Shown here: positions 7,208 to 29,974 of the stretch, one piece after another
Layout: every line of letters begins with the position of its first letter
Numbering within the stretch: the stretch's first letter is position 1
DNA from: Planctomycetota bacterium
GTDB lineage: Bacteria > Planctomycetota > Planctomycetia > Pirellulales > Pirellulaceae
DNA: 34,319 bases
Direction: 5' to 3'
Assembly (NCBI GenBank): GCA_026692905.1
Contig: JAPLNL010000055.1
Location: 1-34,319 of the forward strand
Notes under the pieces: model-generated
Told to the model about the DNA's origin: nothing
Database searches by the model: none
Seen by the model: the letters and a program-made list of their open reading frames with translations, nothing else
Program-made: the position numbers and the translations under genes

Positions 7208-7371
7208 TTCTTAGGATTTTACGTGGGAATACCGAACTAGTAATTCTCCGGCACGGTGCCGGTAGACAAGTCCTAAGTTTACCCCATCCGGCTGGTTGAA
7301 TGGACCGACTCGCTGCTTGGCGGTGAATGCTTGACGGTGAATGTTTGGGCGGTCGCCTAGGAAACACCGAA

Positions 7372-7404
7372 GCTCCGGCGTGTCAAACGCGTGTCAAACC
7401 GGAG
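7372..7404 (-). repeat. 33-bp palindromic repeat, copy 1 (inverted relative to copy 2 at 12677)
   Basis: Read on the minus strand, this 33-base element starts CTCCGGTTTGACACGCG and ends ACACGCCGGAGC. It is identical to 12677-12709 on the plus strand. The ends form a CTCCGG/CCGGAG stem, and the interior contains the tandem word TTTGACACG twice. It lies between the convergent end of the NPYA-type gene and the DoxX promoter region. Confidence 0.85.
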
Positions 7405-7444
7405 TGTGTTGAAGGTGCGGCCCTGCATGTACGTACAGTGGTGT

Positions 7445-12594: not shown

Positions 12595-12676
12595 ATACCG
12601 AAGTCGTGAATCCAGCTTCATTCCAACCTGTGAAAATCACGCTCGGTTTTGCCGGTGAATGGTTACTGCGAACTCG

Positions 12677-12709
12677 CTCCGGTTTGACACGCGTTTGACA
12701 CGCCGGAGC
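12677..12709 (+). repeat. 33-bp palindromic repeat, copy 2
   Basis: This is identical, base for base, to the minus-strand reading of 7372-7404. It has a CTCCGG/CCGGAG stem and two copies of TTTGACACG inside. It lies in non-coding sequence upstream of the tRNA-Arg gene's 3' side. Confidence 0.85.
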
Positions 12710-12903
12710 GAGGTGTTTACTCGGCTCCCGGCCAAACATCCACCTCCAAGCCGCTGGACTGTACATTCTGCCAGCCACATGGGTTACATTGAAGACGCTC
12801 GCAAGCGTCGAAGAAGCCCCCCCGATGGGTAGGAAATGTACCTAGGTCCATTTTTGGACTTGGGGGGCAGCAAGAATTGACGTAACTCGTTACGCAGTAA
12901 GAA

Positions 12904-16174: not shown

Positions 16175-16743
16175 CCTTGAATTGTACCGAACAATGATCG
16201 AGTGTACGCAAAAAGCCCGAATACGCTACGCTCGTTCTCACAACATTTGACTTTGCCGTGCTCTGCATGCCCCCCACGGCCACTTTCCCTGAAAAAGGCA
16301 TCGCAGCGAAGCACTTTCCGCTGCTAAAAACAGTCGTTTCTGTAGCGAAAGTCGTCAAAACTTTCGGCTGCATTGCATAAACATGTTGTGCTGTTTTCGC
16401 TAAAAGATGTCCGATCTTGGAAATTTCTCACCTGCGTGGCGGATCGAGAGCAGGATGCAAAGCTAAAAGAGTACAATGCGCGAAGGCAAGGCTCTTTGTC
16501 GAGTGACGGGTGCGAGTTGTTCAGCACAACGTCAAGCTGGTGAGTTCACTCGCTTGTGCGTCGTATTGAACTAAGTTCAATCCGATAGCTTGCGCGTCGT
16601 GCTGTGATAATTCCAGTTCACTAGCTTGCGCGTCGTGCTAGAACAATTACAATTCACCGGCTTGCGCATTGTGGCAAAATGGCCCTCAGCCTGATGCCGC
16701 GTTAATCCAGAGGATTGATCCCACCTTTTTTAAGTTTGGCTAA
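16175..16743. promoter_or_regulatory. Divergent intergenic region upstream of the moxR operon, with hairpin and tandem repeats
   Basis: This 569-base region separates the propeller gene from the moxR operon and should carry both promoters. It holds a hairpin at 16346-16366 (CGAAAGT...ACTTTCG, 7-base stem, 7-base loop) and the 36-bp array at 16544-16687. No clear promoter hexamers were recognised. Confidence 0.5.
16544..16687 (+). repeat. 36-bp tandem array, four copies
   Basis: Four imperfect copies start at 16544, 16580, 16616 and 16652, with an exact 36-base period. The conserved core AGCTTGCGCGTCGTGCT is best in copies 2 and 3, and copies 1 and 4 are weaker. The core start (CTTG) falls at 16553, 16589, 16625 and 16661. 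The array lies 57 bases upstream of the moxR start. Confidence 0.8.
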
Positions 16744-17784
16744 ATGAACCCGCCTTTCCCACCCCCAAGTCAAGATGACTTGCTGCAAGCCAGAAAACTG
16801 CAGGAAACCTTTCAAAAAATTCGTTTTCAAATCGGCCAAGTGATCGTCGGTCAAGACAAAACGATCGAACAGCTCTTGATTGCGATCTTGGCCGGCGGAC
16901 ACTGTCTGCTCGAAGGGGTACCTGGATTAGCAAAGACCCTGATGGTTCGCTCTCTGGCTGAGTCCATGGATTTGCAGTTCCATCGTATCCAGTTCACTCC
17001 CGACTTGATGCCAGCCGATATCACTGGCACCGACATCATTCAACAGTCGGAAACCGGCAGCCGACAGCTTGCTTTTGCAAAGGGTCCCGTCTTCACCCAA
17101 ATCCTATTGGCGGACGAAATCAACCGAACTCCACCGAAAACGCAGGCCGCTTTGCTAGAAGCCATGCAAGAGCATTCCGTAACCGTCGGTGGCAAAACGT
17201 ACAAACTTTCAGAGCCCTTCTTCGTCCTAGCAACGCAAAACCCGATCGAACAGGAAGGAACTTATGCTCTTCCTGAAGCCCAACGCGACCGGTTTCTTTT
17301 TCAAACGATTGTTGACTATCCAACGAGAGATCAAGAAGGTGAAATCATAGAGCGCACGACCGGGGCAGGTGTGGGGAAAATTGCACCTGTTGTTTCTGGG
17401 CCTGAAATCGTTCGATTTCAGCAACTCGTCCGCTTGGTTCCATTGCCCGACCACGTGAAACAATTTGTGCTCGACGTGGTTCGTGCCCTCAGGCCGAAAG
17501 AATCGGATGCGTTGAAGTGGGTTCCGCAGCTGGTCCAATGGGGGCCAGGCCCCCGTGCTAGCCAACAAATTGTGATGGCCAGCAAGGCTAGGGCTCTGCT
17601 ACTGGGGCGATTGCATGTGACGATCGAAGACATTGAGGCGCTCGCCGCCCCAGTTCTTCGACATCGTATCGTACCCACCTTCAGCGCCCAAGCGGAAGGA
17701 ATCGATGCCGATACGATTATCGCTCGCCTGCTGAAAGAGCTTCCGCGAAGGAAAGCCAGCTCCCCTAAAACCGTCTCTGCATAG
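16744..17784 (+). CDS. MoxR-type AAA+ ATPase
   Basis: This 346-residue MoxR-family ATPase is a chaperone-like AAA+ protein that usually works with a VWA-domain partner encoded in the same operon. Walker A is [11 protein letters not shown], near residue 60. Walker B is ILLADEINR. The conserved blocks [34 protein letters not shown] and the sensor/lid region ([20 protein letters not shown]) are all present, so the protein is complete. The ATG is the first in frame and has no strong ribosome-binding site. The stop is 11 bases before the next gene. From family knowledge, MoxR-DUF58-VWA gene sets are linked to envelope stress, oxygen tolerance or metal insertion into enzymes; the substrate here is unknown. 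Confidence 0.95.
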
Positions 17785-17795
17785 ATCGCTTCAAA

Positions 17796-18704
17796 GTGAA
17801 AGCACCTTTACTGCGTTGGCTATCACCACCCGATCTGTCGCGCGTCTCCCATTTGCAATTGCTGGCTCGTGGAGTTGTCGAAGGAGTTAGTGGTGGGCTG
17901 CACCGATCGCATCACGTGGGCTCGAGTATCGAGTTCAAGGAACATCGACCGTACGTCCCCGGAGATGAAACGCGAACGATCGATTGGAAGCTTTTTGGAA
18001 AGACCGATCGCCTTTACATTCGCCAGTACGAAGACGAGACCAATCTTCGTTGCACCGTCGTAATCGATCAAAGCGGTTCGATGAAGTATTCCGGTTCGCG
18101 TTCCAACGGAATATCTAAGCATGAGTTTGCGATTCGTTTAGCCGCATGTCTCTCGTACATGCTCGTCAATCAGCAAGATGCAGTTGGATTAGCTATGTTC
18201 GACTCCAAAATTCGATCGTATATCCCGCCCCGAAGTCGACCGAACCACCTGCAGACCCTGCTCGAAGCCATGGCCGCCTCCAAGCCAGGCAGCGAAACCG
18301 ATCTTAGCATCGTGCTGCAAGGACTATTGAACCATTGCAAGCGTCGCGGTCTCGTCTTTATTCTTTCGGATTGTTTTGGAGATGCAGAAGCGATCGTCAA
18401 ATCCCTAGCCTTACTGCGAAGCAATCATCAGGAGATTGTCGTATTCCAAATATGGGACGACGACGAACTCGATTTTCCATTTCAGACTCGCACCATGTTC
18501 CAATCTTTGGAGCTAGAAACGCATCAAATGCTTGTCGATCCGACCGGGCTTCGATCGGTATATCTTGAAAACCTGAAGGCCTTTCGACAAGAACTAGAAC
18601 AAGGATGTATGCGAAATCGTGTCGATCTGATTTCCGTAAAGACATCGGATTCCTTCAGCATGGCGCTCTCCAATTACATCGCCTCGAGAAGGAGTCACGG
18701 ATGA
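17796..18704 (+). CDS. DUF58 domain protein (VWA-like, MoxR partner)
   Basis: This 302-residue DUF58-family protein starts at a GTG (17796). The hallmark blocks are FKEHRPYVPGDETRTIDWKL, the phrase RLYIRQYEDETNLRCTVVID, and DQSGSMKYSG, a MIDAS-type metal site (DxSxS) of the VWA fold. The fold continues with AACLSYMLVNQQDAVGLAMF, RGLVFILSDCFGD and EIVVFQIWDDDELDFPF. No signal peptide or membrane helix is present, as is usual for members working in the cytoplasm beside MoxR. The gene begins 11 bases after moxR, and its TGA overlaps the next ATG (ATGA), so all three are cotranslated. Confidence 0.95.
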   Translation: MKAPLLRWLSPPDLSRVSHLQLLARGVVEGVSGGLHRSHHVGSSIEFKEHRPYVPGDETRTIDWKLFGKTDRLYIRQYEDETNLRCTVVIDQSGSMKYSGSRSNGISKHEFAIRLAACLSYMLVNQQDAVGLAMFDSKIRSYIPPRSRPNHLQTLLEAMAASKPGSETDLSIVLQGLLNHCKRRGLVFILSDCFGDAEAIVKSLALLRSNHQEIVVFQIWDDDELDFPFQTRTMFQSLELETHQMLVDPTGLRSVYLENLKAFRQELEQGCMRNRVDLISVKTSDSFSMALSNYIASRRSHG

Positions 18705-20368
18705 CGCTACTGAACGGCTTATTAGCCTTTGGAGCAGCAGCCTTTACGGTTCCGCTCATCATTCACTTGCTCCACCGAAGTCGCTACCAGACGATCGAGT
18801 GGGGCGCCATGCATCTTCTCCAAGCGTCGAAGAACCTTAACTCACGGCGAATGCAATGGCAACAGTTGCTTTTGCTCTTAATGCGATGCGCACTTCCGGT
18901 CCTGCTCGCGTTAGCCATGTCCAGGCCACTCCTACAGTCCTTCGGGGGAGCAAATGGACAAGCGGCCGTTTCATTGGCCATCATCATCGACGATTCTATG
19001 TCGATGTTTGTAGCAAGTCATCTTGAGGAACCGAACGCAAAGACGCTTTTTTCGGTTGCCTGCAACTCGGCGGCTGAGATCTTAGACAAATTGCCAGCAG
19101 GGAGTAATTCTCTAGTATTACTCGGTGGCATCCACGCCGAGGCGTTGGAGGGTCAAATCCCAGATGACTTGTCAACCAAGCTCAAAGAGCTAGCGAGCAG
19201 AACTATTCCAGCCGGTGACCTCGGCCTGCAAGAGTCGATCCGCAATTCGCTCGCATGGCTAGCCTCTAGCCAAAACACTCGACGCCAGATTATTGTTCTT
19301 TCCGATTGCCAAAAGCATGAGTGGTCAACTTGGAACAGCGACCAAGCCTCCCAGCTAGCAAATGAAATTGCGGCACAATCCGTTCCTCCGCAAATCTCCT
19401 TCGTGCGCATTTCGGCCAAGGAAGTTGATGGCTCGTCGAAAGGTTCCAATCTGTCGGTTGATTCGCTGGATGTTTCCCCATCTCTGTTAGCCGTAGATCG
19501 GGATATCACCATCTCAACGACGGTAGGGAACCACGGTTCCGAAAAGTGCGACAACGTCATGGTATCCGTCATGGTAAACGATAAGGAGATTGAACGACAA
19601 GAGATCGCGCTCGCGCCGGCGACCTCCACCGTTATTCGTACCCGATGGTCGCCCCAGCAAACGGGCGATCACTTGATCCGAGCTCAGATTTTGCGAGAAG
19701 ACGATTTGTTCGCGGACAATGCGTTGACAAGTGCGTTCGTCGTCCAAGCTCCCATTGCAATCTTGCTGGTGGACGGTGACCAGCGTGGGGAAAAAATGCA
19801 AAGCGAAACGGACTTCTTGCGATTGGCTCTATCTCCGTTCTCCTTGCTGAATGGAGAGAAAGGGGACATTTTTTTGTCAAAGACCATTCAGGCAAACGAG
19901 TTAAATGAAACAATCCTTTCCAATTACCGAGCGGTTTGTCTTTGCAACGTTCGTGAAGTGAATGATGTTCAGCAGAAAGCCTTGTACAACTTTGTTGAGA
20001 AGGGGAACGGACTCATGGTGTTCTTGGGCGACAAAGTTCGAACGGAGCAATATCAATCATGGCCCACTTTGGCACAAAAGGGGTTGAAAATCGCGAACAT
20101 TTCGAAGCGAACCAAGAATGAGCCAGAGAAGAAGAATGAGCCAGAGAAGAAGAATGAGCCAGAGAAGAAGAACAATCTCGACAGAAACGGAGCTTGGACC
20201 AAGCGGTCGGATCAAGCTGCAGCAACTCGAATTCGCACCTGTTCGCGAGTTATCTTCCGTGAGTCTCAACTCGCTGGCGAGCGTCCGGTTCGAATATCGT
20301 TGTCCGATGGTTCTCGATCCCGCCGCGTTAGTCAATGCGACCGATGCTTCGACTGCGATGCGATTTGA
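18701..20368 (+). CDS. BatA-like membrane protein, N-terminal part (frameshifted)
   Basis: The start is the ATG at 18701, overlapping the DUF58 stop; the 556-residue frame includes an out-of-frame tail. The N-terminus has the BatA pattern: LLNGLLAFGAAAFTVPLIIH and then HLLHRSRYQTIEWGAMHLL. A membrane helix follows (LLLLLMRCALPVLLALAMSRP), then a VWA-like domain with IIIDDSMSMF as its MIDAS motif and QIIVLSDCQKHEW. A beta-sandwich segment and a GATase-like segment follow (ILLVDGDQRGEKMQSETDF). After the three KNEPEK repeats the sense switches to another frame at about 20168; the frame's own tail (NLDRNGAWTKRSD...) has no family character. The rest of the protein is encoded at 20118-21029. The gene needs a +1 shift to be whole, or it is a split gene. 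Confidence 0.85.
   Translation: MTLLNGLLAFGAAAFTVPLIIHLLHRSRYQTIEWGAMHLLQASKNLNSRRMQWQQLLLLLMRCALPVLLALAMSRPLLQSFGGANGQAAVSLAIIIDDSMSMFVASHLEEPNAKTLFSVACNSAAEILDKLPAGSNSLVLLGGIHAEALEGQIPDDLSTKLKELASRTIPAGDLGLQESIRNSLAWLASSQNTRRQIIVLSDCQKHEWSTWNSDQASQLANEIAAQSVPPQISFVRISAKEVDGSSKGSNLSVDSLDVSPSLLAVDRDITISTTVGNHGSEKCDNVMVSVMVNDKEIERQEIALAPATSTVIRTRWSPQQTGDHLIRAQILREDDLFADNALTSAFVVQAPIAILLVDGDQRGEKMQSETDFLRLALSPFSLLNGEKGDIFLSKTIQANELNETILSNYRAVCLCNVREVNDVQQKALYNFVEKGNGLMVFLGDKVRTEQYQSWPTLAQKGLKIANISKRTKNEPEKKNEPEKKNEPEKKNNLDRNGAWTKRSDQAAATRIRTCSRVIFRESQLAGERPVRISLSDGSRSRRVSQCDRCFDCDAI
20114..20167 (+). repeat. 18-bp tandem repeat, three copies, at the frameshift site
   Basis: The 18-base unit AAGAATGAGCCAGAGAAG is present three times (20114-20131, 20132-20149, 20150-20167), encoding KNEPEK each time in the first frame and MSQRRR in the second. 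The unit is a multiple of three, so copy number does not change the reading frame; the frame change lies just after the array. Confidence 0.95.
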
Positions 20369-21029
20369 GGATGATCAAGCTTGGATTTTGGAATCACGCA
20401 TAGGAAAAGGGCGATGCATTTGGGTTAGCAGTGCGTGCGATGACGATGATTCCAATTTGCCGACGCGAACCATTTACGTTCCTCTCATGCAAAAGCTTGC
20501 CGCCTTTGTTTGCAATGCCGAGCCACCGAAGACGCATCTGAATGCGAGCGAGACTTGGTCACGGGCAATGGGCAGCGCAGCGACTAAGTCCGACTCAAGC
20601 ATTGAAGTCCTAATAACCAAACCGGATGGTAAAGTGGTGAAGTCGCAAGGGAACAGCGAGGGGCAATTCAGCTTCTCCGAGACGCGACTCCTGGGTACTT
20701 ATACAGGAAAAATGGTCGGAGCCAAGGAGACGATGTTGGCATGCGTTACGAGCCAAGAGTACCGATCGGCTAAAGAATCGACGCTGGCGTACCTGACTGC
20801 CGACGAGCTGACCAAGCTTGCTGGTTCCTGCAAAGCCTCAGTAGCCACGAGCGCCTCAGATTTGCTTGCCAACACGGTGTCGGAGTGGAATGGTCGCGAA
20901 GTGTGGACATGGATTTGGACGGCCTTGCTTTTCTGCTTCTTGGCTGAAATTGCTTTAGAACAACGTCTTTCCCCGAGGGTGAAGTCGAAGGTAGCTGCAT
21001 CATCGTCACTCCGCGGGACAACAGCATGA
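20118..21029 (+). CDS. BatA-like membrane protein, C-terminal part in the +1 frame
   Basis: This 303-codon frame continues the BatA-like gene after the frame switch. Coding sense begins at TISTETELGPSGRIKLQQLE; the preceding MSQRRR repeats are the 18-bp array read in the other frame. Later blocks are ALVNATDASTAMRFEDDQAW, ESRIGKGRCIWVSSACDDD, FSFSETRLLGTYTGKMVG and the closing membrane helix VWTWIWTALLFCFLAEIALE, typical of the C-terminus of BatA-like proteins with 'RxLAxxE' ends. The ATG at 20118 has no evident ribosome-binding site. Its TGA overlaps the ATG of the next gene. Independent translation of this half would give a protein lacking the VWA part. Confidence 0.7.
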   Translation: MSQRRRMSQRRRMSQRRRTISTETELGPSGRIKLQQLEFAPVRELSSVSLNSLASVRFEYRCPMVLDPAALVNATDASTAMRFEDDQAWILESRIGKGRCIWVSSACDDDDSNLPTRTIYVPLMQKLAAFVCNAEPPKTHLNASETWSRAMGSAATKSDSSIEVLITKPDGKVVKSQGNSEGQFSFSETRLLGTYTGKMVGAKETMLACVTSQEYRSAKESTLAYLTADELTKLAGSCKASVATSASDLLANTVSEWNGREVWTWIWTALLFCFLAEIALEQRLSPRVKSKVAASSSLRGTTA

Positions 21030-23371
21030 CAGCTATTCGATTTTCTGGCGTGTGGCCATGGTGGCTTGTCCTGGTCCTCGGCATCTTGGGGGCAATTTGG
21101 ATTGCACGTTGGGTTTGGCGAGAATCGCGACATGTTAGTAACCCGACGCGTTGGTTATTGCCATCGCTTCGGGCAGCTGCCTTTTTCCTGATCTTATTTA
21201 TGCTCGCGGGCCCCACGCTGTACCACCAGCGGATCGAGGGCCAACTCAGTCGGGTTCGAATCCTGCTCGATACTTCGACTAGTATGGGGACTGTGGATGA
21301 TGGCGATACAAAGGCTGGCTCCGAATCGAGATTGGCTCGCGCTGCGAATTGGCTTATCGGTGATGAGAAGCAAGCCGGTTCGAAACGAGGTTGGCTACAA
21401 GCGTTGAGCCAGCACCATCGAGTGGAACTGAGATCCTCCTCTAGCGAATTAGGCGAGCCGGTACTCTGGGATTCGCGGATGAACGTCCCGCTACCCAAAA
21501 GCGATAGTATTGTTGAACGGGGGGGAAATTCGCCGCTTGGAGAATTTTTGATGACCTCTTTACCGACGAGAGAATCATCGTCAAATGCTGACCCAGAAGT
21601 GTTTACTTCTTCCGCGCAGGGCAGTGAGGTGATTGCTGCTGTCGTCTTGATCTCGGATGGGCAGAGCAACTCTGGAGTGAGTATTGGTGACGCCGCACAA
21701 AAATATGCAATTGAGAAAACACCCATTTTCGCAATTGGAGTTGGTAACGAGAGAGAACCTGCAGATCTTGGAATTGTCACCGTCGAACATTCGCAGCGCG
21801 TCTATCGTTCAGATCGTTTACGCGGCAAGGTGACGATAAAAGAGCGAATGCCCGCGGGGGTTCAGTACCGAATTTCAATTACGCACCTCGACAAGCTCAT
21901 ATTCTCCAAGGCCTTGTTTTCTTTGGATTCGGGTACACGTAGCGTTGAGTTTGACATTCCAGGCGAACCGCTTGTCGACCGTGCAAAAGAGAACTTGCCA
22001 GCTGGCTCCGAGTATTCGACGGTACCGATTGATCTGCGATTTGAGATTGAGGGAGGGGAACCCGAGATCACTCTTGAAAACAATGCGTTCAGCTCATCTC
22101 TTTGGGGTGTTAATCGCAAAAACAAGGTCCTTGTTATGGATCGAAGAGGCGGCTGGGAGCTGCGGTACATTAAAAACGCGATGGAAAGAGATGCCGCGTG
22201 GGAATCCACGGTTGCCATAGGTCGAAGCACAGGATCGCAAGAGTCCTTCCCCAAAACGCGGGTGGAGTTATTTGAGCACGACTTGATCGTGACAACGTTG
22301 GATACGGCTCGCGAGCTTTCGGAGGAGCAGCAAGTTTGGCTTACGGATTTCGTTAGCGTAAGTGGCGGCGGCTTGGTCATTCTTGACAGCAAGCGAGAAC
22401 GAGGCGCTTCAGCGGATCATTCTCAACTCTCCAGCCTTTTACCTGTAACAATGCTGGACCAGCCGATGGACACATCCAGTTCATCACTGAAACTTACGCC
22501 GGCCGCAAAGAATCAGGCTGCCTTTCAATTGGCGGCGGGCGACTCGCAAAACGATTCAACTTGGTCGCAGATGCCGGCTCCTAAATCGATTCGAGCCGTC
22601 GCGCTTGCTCCAGGTGCGGAAGCCATGGTCGAGTTATCAAATACGGTAAGCAACAAAACCACGCAACCGCTGGTCGCAACGAAACTGTTCGGGCAGGGAC
22701 GAGTCATTTACTTCGCTGCCGATGAATCTTGGCGGTGGCGAATGAACGTGGCCGACCTGTACCATCAGCGTTTTTGGAATCAAATTGCAACTTGGTGCAT
22801 GCGTGCCCCATTTGCGATGAGCGATGCCTTCGCATCGTTGGATTCGGGCGCGAGGCTTTACAATCCATCAAGCACCATCACGGTGCGCGCTAAACTCAAG
22901 CAAAACGATGCACAACCTCTTGAGAATGCGACCGTGCAAGCGATCTTGGAGCGAGACGGCGAGCGCTACGCTTCCTTTCCTCTTGCATCCGAGGTTGACG
23001 CAAGAGGTTTTTATCGGACCACGTTTGGACCGCTGCCCCAAGGGGATTATCGCGTACGTTTGGAGGTAGCTGGTGTGCCGAGCGATGCCTTGAGTTTATC
23101 GACACAATTTGTCGTCCAACCACCAGTCAATTTAGAGATGCAAATGTTAGCGTCCAATGGTGAGGCGCTTCGGCAAGCTGCAACGCTGACCGGTGGTGAA
23201 TTTGCCTATCTTGATTCAGCCGATGCAATCACAGACAAATTGAAGCAGTTTCGGCAGGGCAAAATGATCGAAACCCAGACGCTGCTGTGGCAAAGTTTTC
23301 CATGGTTTGCAACAATAATCGGACTTCTCGCGGCAGAGTGGTATCTAAGGAAACGAGCAGGACTAATCTGA
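21026..23371 (+). CDS. VWA-domain membrane protein with GATase-like region
   Basis: This 781-residue protein has two N-terminal helices (WWLVLVLGILGAIWIARWVW and AAAFFLILFMLAGPTLY), then a VWA domain whose MIDAS motif is RILLDTSTSMGT (DxSxS). VVLISDGQSNSGVSIGDAA and TPIFAIGVGNEREPADLGIV are further VWA blocks. A beta-sandwich, a GATase1-like segment (NKVLVMDRRGGWELRYIKNA and VWLTDFVSVSGGGLVILDS) and RVIYFAADESWRWRMNVADL follow. The C-terminal helix is WFATIIGLLAAEWYLRKR, so the bulk lies outside the membrane. Such architecture is standard in planctomycete MoxR/Bat-like operons. The ATG overlaps the preceding stop (ATGA) and the TGA overlaps the next ATG (TGATG). Confidence 0.92.
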   Translation: MTAIRFSGVWPWWLVLVLGILGAIWIARWVWRESRHVSNPTRWLLPSLRAAAFFLILFMLAGPTLYHQRIEGQLSRVRILLDTSTSMGTVDDGDTKAGSESRLARAANWLIGDEKQAGSKRGWLQALSQHHRVELRSSSSELGEPVLWDSRMNVPLPKSDSIVERGGNSPLGEFLMTSLPTRESSSNADPEVFTSSAQGSEVIAAVVLISDGQSNSGVSIGDAAQKYAIEKTPIFAIGVGNEREPADLGIVTVEHSQRVYRSDRLRGKVTIKERMPAGVQYRISITHLDKLIFSKALFSLDSGTRSVEFDIPGEPLVDRAKENLPAGSEYSTVPIDLRFEIEGGEPEITLENNAFSSSLWGVNRKNKVLVMDRRGGWELRYIKNAMERDAAWESTVAIGRSTGSQESFPKTRVELFEHDLIVTTLDTARELSEEQQVWLTDFVSVSGGGLVILDSKRERGASADHSQLSSLLPVTMLDQPMDTSSSSLKLTPAAKNQAAFQLAAGDSQNDSTWSQMPAPKSIRAVALAPGAEAMVELSNTVSNKTTQPLVATKLFGQGRVIYFAADESWRWRMNVADLYHQRFWNQIATWCMRAPFAMSDAFASLDSGARLYNPSSTITVRAKLKQNDAQPLENATVQAILERDGERYASFPLASEVDARGFYRTTFGPLPQGDYRVRLEVAGVPSDALSLSTQFVVQPPVNLEMQMLASNGEALRQAATLTGGEFAYLDSADAITDKLKQFRQGKMIETQTLLWQSFPWFATIIGLLAAEWYLRKRAGLI

Positions 23372-29448: not shown

Positions 29449-29516
29449 TGTCGGATAGCCGAAAAAACGAACCAGTTCGAAAAGGGAATCTAGTCCTCAA
29501 ACCAAGAATAGCGAAT

Positions 29517-29572
29517 CATGCGTAGCGAAACATGCGTAGCGAAACATGCGTAGCGAAACATGCGTAGCGAAA
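29517..29572 (+). repeat. 14-bp tandem array, four copies
   Basis: CATGCGTAGCGAAA is repeated four times head to tail (starts 29517, 29531, 29545, 29559). A degenerate copy precedes it (AGCGAAT) and AACC follows. It is non-coding and lies 68 bases after the operon's last stop. Confidence 0.9.
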
Positions 29573-29757
29573 CCAAGGAAATTTGTCGAAAGTCCTAACG
29601 GCTGTCGCTACATTCCAAACCAAAACACCCCACTATAAGTTTTAACGCAGTAACAGCCATAAATTTTAGCGGTGTCGTCAATCGTTTTTTGCAGGATGGC
29701 CTGAACATTTCAAGCATTGGGGATGTCGTTTGAGTAAGCGAATTACGTTGCAGTCCT

Positions 29758-29899: not shown

Positions 29900-29974
29900 C
29901 GGGGTGTAGCGCAGCCTGGCTAGCGCATCTGGTTTGGGACCAGAGGGTCGGAGGTTCGAATCCTCTCACCCCGA
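29900..29974 (+). tRNA. tRNA-Pro (anticodon TGG)
   Basis: This is a 75-nt cloverleaf with acceptor CGGGGTG/CACCCCG and D arm GCGC...GCGC. The anticodon arm TCTGG-TTTGGGA-CCAGA gives TGG, and the T arm is GGAGG-TTCGAAT-CCTCT. The discriminator base is A and CCA is not encoded. A serine recombinase gene reads into its antisense strand, which marks it as the attachment site of an element to its right. Confidence 0.97.

Follow-up and report, generated by a model that had tools for sequence, protein, structure and literature searches.

A BatA-like gene in a planctomycete MoxR operon is split over two reading frames directly after an 18-bp tandem repeat

Bat (Bacteroides aerotolerance)-like operons, in which a MoxR ATPase and a DUF58 protein are encoded together with BatA/VWA membrane proteins, are described for Borrelia and other organisms in a passage of PMC5700661. 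Our literature search found no paper joining MoxR, BatA and a planctomycete. Here we analysed an operon of this kind in a 34,319-nt stretch of a Planctomycetota genome (contig JAPLNL010000055.1, positions 1 to 34,319; referred to below as the window), where the open reading frame (ORF) list and a profile search gave the gene order MoxR, DUF58, BatA-like gene, VWA gene and then another long ORF. The BatA-like gene is split over two frames beside an 18-bp tandem array. We favour reading it as a loss-of-function allele or strain variant of recent origin and not as a regulatory device; probably a recent out-of-frame insertion or deletion (indel) in the fast-evolving linker of a single ancestral BatA-like gene broke the frame.

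The initial annotation had placed a +1 shift in this gene immediately behind the 18-base repeat, and we confirmed both the split and its position. Two overlapping BatA-like ORFs were found (Table 1), the first of which closes with the stop codon at 20366-20368. The array ends at 20172 and homology to the nearest relative (G021) resumes in the +1 frame from 20178, while a codon-composition model that is free of homology and had learned from other regions of this genome placed the switch at ~20184. The array is translated as KNEPEK in the first frame and as RMSQRR in the +1 frame, and the third frame has a stop in every unit. Measured from anchor to anchor, the region has 92 nt in the window versus 76 nt in G021, a net gain of 16 nt that shifts the frame by +1; read by eye, this gain consists of two extra 18-bp units (+36) and the loss of ~20 nt after the array. 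As the aligned sequences read, the break is not a single base gained or lost within otherwise matching sequence. Since 18 nt make up six codons, changes in unit number cannot restore the frame, as had been pointed out from the outset.

The assignment of the first part to the BatA-like proteins of a MoxR operon also held, as the N-terminal double-transmembrane domain of BatA was recognised by PF07584 and TIGR02226 and the MoxR ATPase and DUF58 genes adjoin. What sets the window gene apart from its orthologues is the frame. A homology search covered 40 genomes, among them G000, from which the window comes, and loci could be aligned from 23 of the 24 other genomes of the same genus (L002-L024; the match in G023 was too weak) and from one distant record. 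The single continuous gene that the initial annotation had suggested looking for in related operons was present in all 23 aligned same-genus orthologues, which run through the linker in one frame (L024 lacks its beginning because of a contig end), versus two frames in the window. Intact orthologues and an indel of a length not divisible by three are what a frameshift pseudogene would present. In a second search of 27 genomes of the genus, 23 matched at E 1e-60 and a two-piece match was obtained in the window's own genome only. The G021 orthologue, with 89% protein identity in the N-terminal part and 87% DNA identity over the gene, is one 770-aa frame spanning both halves, and it carries one KNEPEK unit followed by KNVAPPANPTSTETELG where the window has three units. 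Over this gene, the G021 protein is identical to that of CANHVO010000413.1, a Planctomycetaceae metagenome assembly. A GTDB genome scan, in which own or very near genomes may be left out, returned seven records at 32-89% identity, and a search of IMG/VR with the doubled array unit gave 0 matches.

Table 1 Features of the split BatA-like locus and of the two other frame-broken genes in the sampled genome.
Feature	Position	Strand	Evidence
MoxR-type AAA+ ATPase gene, intact	16744..17784	+	PF07726 E 1.2e-64, PF17863
DUF58 protein gene, intact	17796..18704	+	PF01882 E 7.6e-44
BatA-like gene, N-terminal part	18701..20368	+	PF07584 E 2.9e-12, TIGR02226 E 4.7e-20, PF07705 E 6.5e-9
Perfect 18-bp tandem array AAGAATGAGCCAGAGAAG	20114..20172	+	3.3 copies, 100% match, Tandem Repeats Finder score 118
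BatA-like gene, C-terminal part, +1 frame	20118..21029	+	85% identical to G021 residues 475-770
Frame-change site	20173..20184	+	homology resumes at STETELG, 20178, +1 frame
Downstream VWA protein gene, intact	21026..23371	+	PF00092 E 1e-4, slightly below curated cut-off
Kup-type K+ transporter gene, frame-broken	L118 near 2474 (G000:C11)		Pfam profile 4-180 and 190-440; net -53 nt vs G021
4-alpha-glucanotransferase gene, frame-broken	L162 near 9273 (G000:C35)		Pfam profile 9-93 and 88-463; net +2 nt vs G021

The break falls in the most variable segment of the protein. Between residues 470 (arginine) and 513 (serine) of the G021 protein, the linker measures 17 to 42 residues in the 23 orthologues, and residues 471-500 showed the lowest conservation among all 30-residue segments (contig-cut L024 was omitted from this score). 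Upstream of it, the N-terminal part consists of a two-anchor membrane domain, a VWA-like region with the sequence DDSMS, a CARDB domain and a weakly ThuA-like stretch, and past the array it continues for 64 non-homologous residues up to a TGA. DDSMS is invariant in 6 aligned relatives and fits the DxSxS metal-site motif given in the passage of PMC5700661. A VWA_2 match was obtained in the G021 orthologue only, below the cut-off (E 0.0024), and the window part had no VWA match at E 0.001. The ThuA match of the G021 orthologue (residues 398-444, E 0.025, below the cut-off) lies just before the linker, so that the break may fall within a loop belonging to a glutamine-amidotransferase-like domain. 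An AlphaFold model of the G021 protein, calculated from a 6-row alignment, had a mean predicted local distance difference test (pLDDT) value of 56 and a predicted template modelling (pTM) score of 0.34, with residues 444-556 below a pLDDT of 50; given this poor quality, the model hints at a disordered linker and leaves the loop position unproven. A fold search of the PDB with the same model gave local matches to the solved CARDB domain (2kl6, 3idu), with template modelling scores (TM-scores) by target length of ~0.8 in two of three chains and 0.67 in the third. Matches to large-enzyme folds, with TM-scores of ~0.1, were given no weight.

Both halves of the gene were equally constrained, with an omega relative to G021 of 0.126 for the N-terminal part and 0.117 for the C-terminal part. 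With G022 as the outgroup, the window carried unique residues at 15 of 471 positions in the N-terminal part and at 8 of 278 in the C-terminal part, compared with 18 and 7 for G021. A simple Poisson model, on which this age bound rests, limited the time that the C-terminal part has been without constraint to less than ~17% of the branch since G021 (95% upper bound). Equal constraint on both halves is expected if the break is very young, and likewise if it exists in the assembly only or if the C-terminal part is still made.

If the indel is real, slippage during replication between the short direct repeats AAGAATG ... AAGAATG would have expanded the 18-bp unit, which is harmless in frame; deletion or repair close by, at this unstable spot, would then have removed bases whose count is not divisible by three. 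The product would be an N-terminal membrane/VWA/CARDB fragment that ends in 64 wrong residues, and everything past the linker, the predicted C-terminal helix among it, would be missing. Translational coupling would be lost for the VWA gene downstream, as its ATG overlaps the lost stop codon. Loss of the gene had been called unexpected in so tightly coupled an operon. This argument is weakened by at least four more BatA-like paralogues with open frames listed in the window's own genome and by two more conserved genes that are frame-broken in 1.14 Mb of it.

These frame-broken genes emerged from a scan with a frame-aware codon model over 61 sampled pieces of the genome (1,137,727 bases with the window counted in, of which 2,546 are N; about one fifth of the 5,955,990-base assembly). 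At the strict setting, which recovered 65 of 200 planted breaks, the BatA-like site was the one call among 820 coding segments of at least 300 nt. A looser setting produced 16 calls (95 of 150 planted breaks recovered) and a still looser one 84 (134 of 150); the break count rests on the 16 calls, not on the 84. Four of the 16 lay in the window and corresponded to the BatA-like site and the gene boundaries at 18684, 20973 and 14088. Five of the 12 calls outside the window were tested with Pfam, which identified two true breaks and two pairs of adjacent different genes and left one call without a match. The other seven were judged by stop and start positions, four having a 4-nt overlap and three a possible start at most 25 nt from the stop. 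This criterion is weak because the true break in L162 has such an overlap too, and the three breaks in the sample are therefore a lower bound. The Kup-type transporter and 4-alpha-glucanotransferase genes (Table 1) are long single frames in G021, G022 and G009, and the -53 nt change in the former is hard to explain by wrong base calls. Frame breaks are thus uncommon in this genome and not unique to the BatA-like gene.

Among the tandem arrays in the same sample, with 10 edge arrays omitted, the period was divisible by three in 20 of 21 coding and in 20 of 71 intergenic cases. Coding arrays with 12-nt margins made up 0.2% of the sampled coding bases, and at least one of three breaks would fall on an array by chance with P ~0.006; this coincidence is only suggestive, being a post hoc comparison of three events, one of which was picked for its array. 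A 53-bp array in L125 that had been scored as coding, with a period that three does not divide, sits where a short ORF ends and was set aside. At L125 1683-1784 the duplicated 53-bp unit contains AAAGTGGAGTGTCCCCTGACCT, parts of which recur just upstream, and it possibly comes from a dispersed intergenic repeat family.

In passages of PMC9426551, lake Planctomycetota are reported to have unusually many structural variants, often at intergenic tandem repeats, and slippage is named as a possible cause of such structural changes. Several points weigh against a recent indel as the origin of the break. The repeats in these passages, which concern lake members of the phylum, are intergenic and not coding, and the Planctomycetota share of coding deletions is given there as below average. 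The relaxed constraint that a pseudogene would show after the break was not seen, omega being equal in both halves, and this equality is also predicted by an assembly error. The indel may be a feature of the assembly that the organism itself does not have, and since linker length is unconstrained, the comparison with relatives cannot exclude a one-base error there.

An assembly or consensus artefact is the main rival and a possible, less favoured explanation, in which the source population had variants of the short array that differ in copy number, these were collapsed or misjoined, and the real gene is continuous. Interrupted ORFs are treated as a sign of indel errors in a passage of PMC9426551. 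The undiminished constraint on both halves fits an artefact, all seven named relatives from the GTDB scan are metagenome assemblies, and the sampled contigs contain three short N gaps (43, 70 and 15 nt) besides the all-N piece L108 (2418 bases). The break also lies exactly at a tandem array, a classic trouble spot for assembly, although the usual short read is longer than this 59-nt array. Against an artefact, the window itself is free of N, no second copy of 20060-20400 was found in the assembly, and the differences from G021 are several and multi-base rather than one base. Frame breaks also look uncommon in the sample (one strict call, three with homology support under looser settings), within the limited sensitivity of the scan. 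Of the three options in the initial annotation, an indel of recent date or a sequencing error fits best, while the other two, a programmed +1 shift and a real split, fare poorly given the single frame in all 23 relatives and a ribosome pairing at chance level for the array start codons.

A further explanation, which we regard as improbable, is that both halves are separate proteins that act together, the C-terminal one starting at an array ATG, at a later start or by reinitiation. Each array unit does hold an ATG in the frame of the C-terminal part behind a purine-rich stretch, this part is still constrained (omega 0.117), and its stop overlaps the next start. Pairing of the array ATGs with the anti-Shine-Dalgarno sequence (-1.9 to -2.9 kcal/mol) was however near the random median of -2.2 kcal/mol, compared with -8.3 kcal/mol for the BatA-like start. 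Pairing is no better at the MoxR and DUF58 starts (-2.0 and +0.4 kcal/mol) than at the array ATGs, and among the in-frame starts scanned from 20178 to 20700 there is good pairing (-6.3 and -7.0 kcal/mol) at the GTG codons 20634 and 20637, so that initiation within the C-terminal part could still occur; these GTGs lie so deep that about half of the part would be skipped. Overall, internal initiation is unlikely. The split also falls in a variable linker with no clear domain border, and none of the aligned same-genus relatives is split. An old split into two functional pieces was rejected for its absence from all aligned relatives. Slightly less credible than two proteins acting together is the reading in which the expanded array, with its three starts in the C-terminal frame, and a small indel converted one gene into a module of two proteins, with the division at a loop. 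Programmed +1 ribosomal frameshifting that fuses both parts is the least credible explanation and was rejected for want of conservation, since 23 of 23 aligned relatives are single-frame and have no need of it. The two frames do overlap openly for ~280 nt and the third is blocked by a stop in each array unit, but the first-frame stop lies 182 nt past the modelled switch, and the junction, inspected by eye only, showed no slip site of a recognised type together with a slow or stop codon.

The remainder of the operon is intact and tightly packed. An ATGA overlap joins the DUF58 stop to the BatA-like start, the MoxR gene has an omega of 0.029 relative to G021, and the C-terminal part of the BatA-like gene, counted from the first array ATG, comprises 303 aa. 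Directly upstream of the MoxR gene lies a degenerate 36-bp tandem array (3.4 copies, 16545-16667), and a repeat of up to ~90 bp at ~16295-16383 occurs at 33 places in G021 among the matches listed (75-93% identity). Elsewhere in the window, an imperfect repeat is present at 7231-7411 and, inverted, at 12665-12791; it recurs in the same genome (C116, C63, C40) and in G021 (C528, C33, C198) at a spacing of ~0.3-1.8 kb and has the appearance of cassette recombination sites in an array, and the profile search for an integron integrase gave no match at the curated cut-off. A near-perfect 14-bp tandem array (4.6 copies, 29509-29573) is located between a 2053-aa ORF and a transfer RNA gene (29900-29974).

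This locus serves mainly as a caution: where a gene in a tightly packed operon is conspicuously split next to a repeat, the cause may be no more than an ordinary indel of recent date or an error of assembly. On the recent-indel reading it is also a small case of tandem-repeat instability reaching into coding sequence. Compared with described systems, the window resembles Bat operons in having MoxR, DUF58, a two-anchor BatA-domain protein and a VWA protein in tight order, whereas its orthologue is longer (770 aa in G021), with a CARDB domain and a weak ThuA-like stretch, and the window gene is frame-broken. Like tandem-repeat phase-variable genes, it carries a short perfect repeat within the coding region; unlike them, its unit of 18 bp is a multiple of three and copy number cannot switch the frame. 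It also resembles ordinary bacterial frameshift pseudogene alleles, with the gene intact in relatives, a small indel, both halves recognisable and two other such cases in the sample; it differs from them in that the break falls on an in-frame 18-bp minisatellite that has newly expanded. Taken together, the break looks like an ordinary mutation of recent date or an assembly error, and not like a new mechanism.

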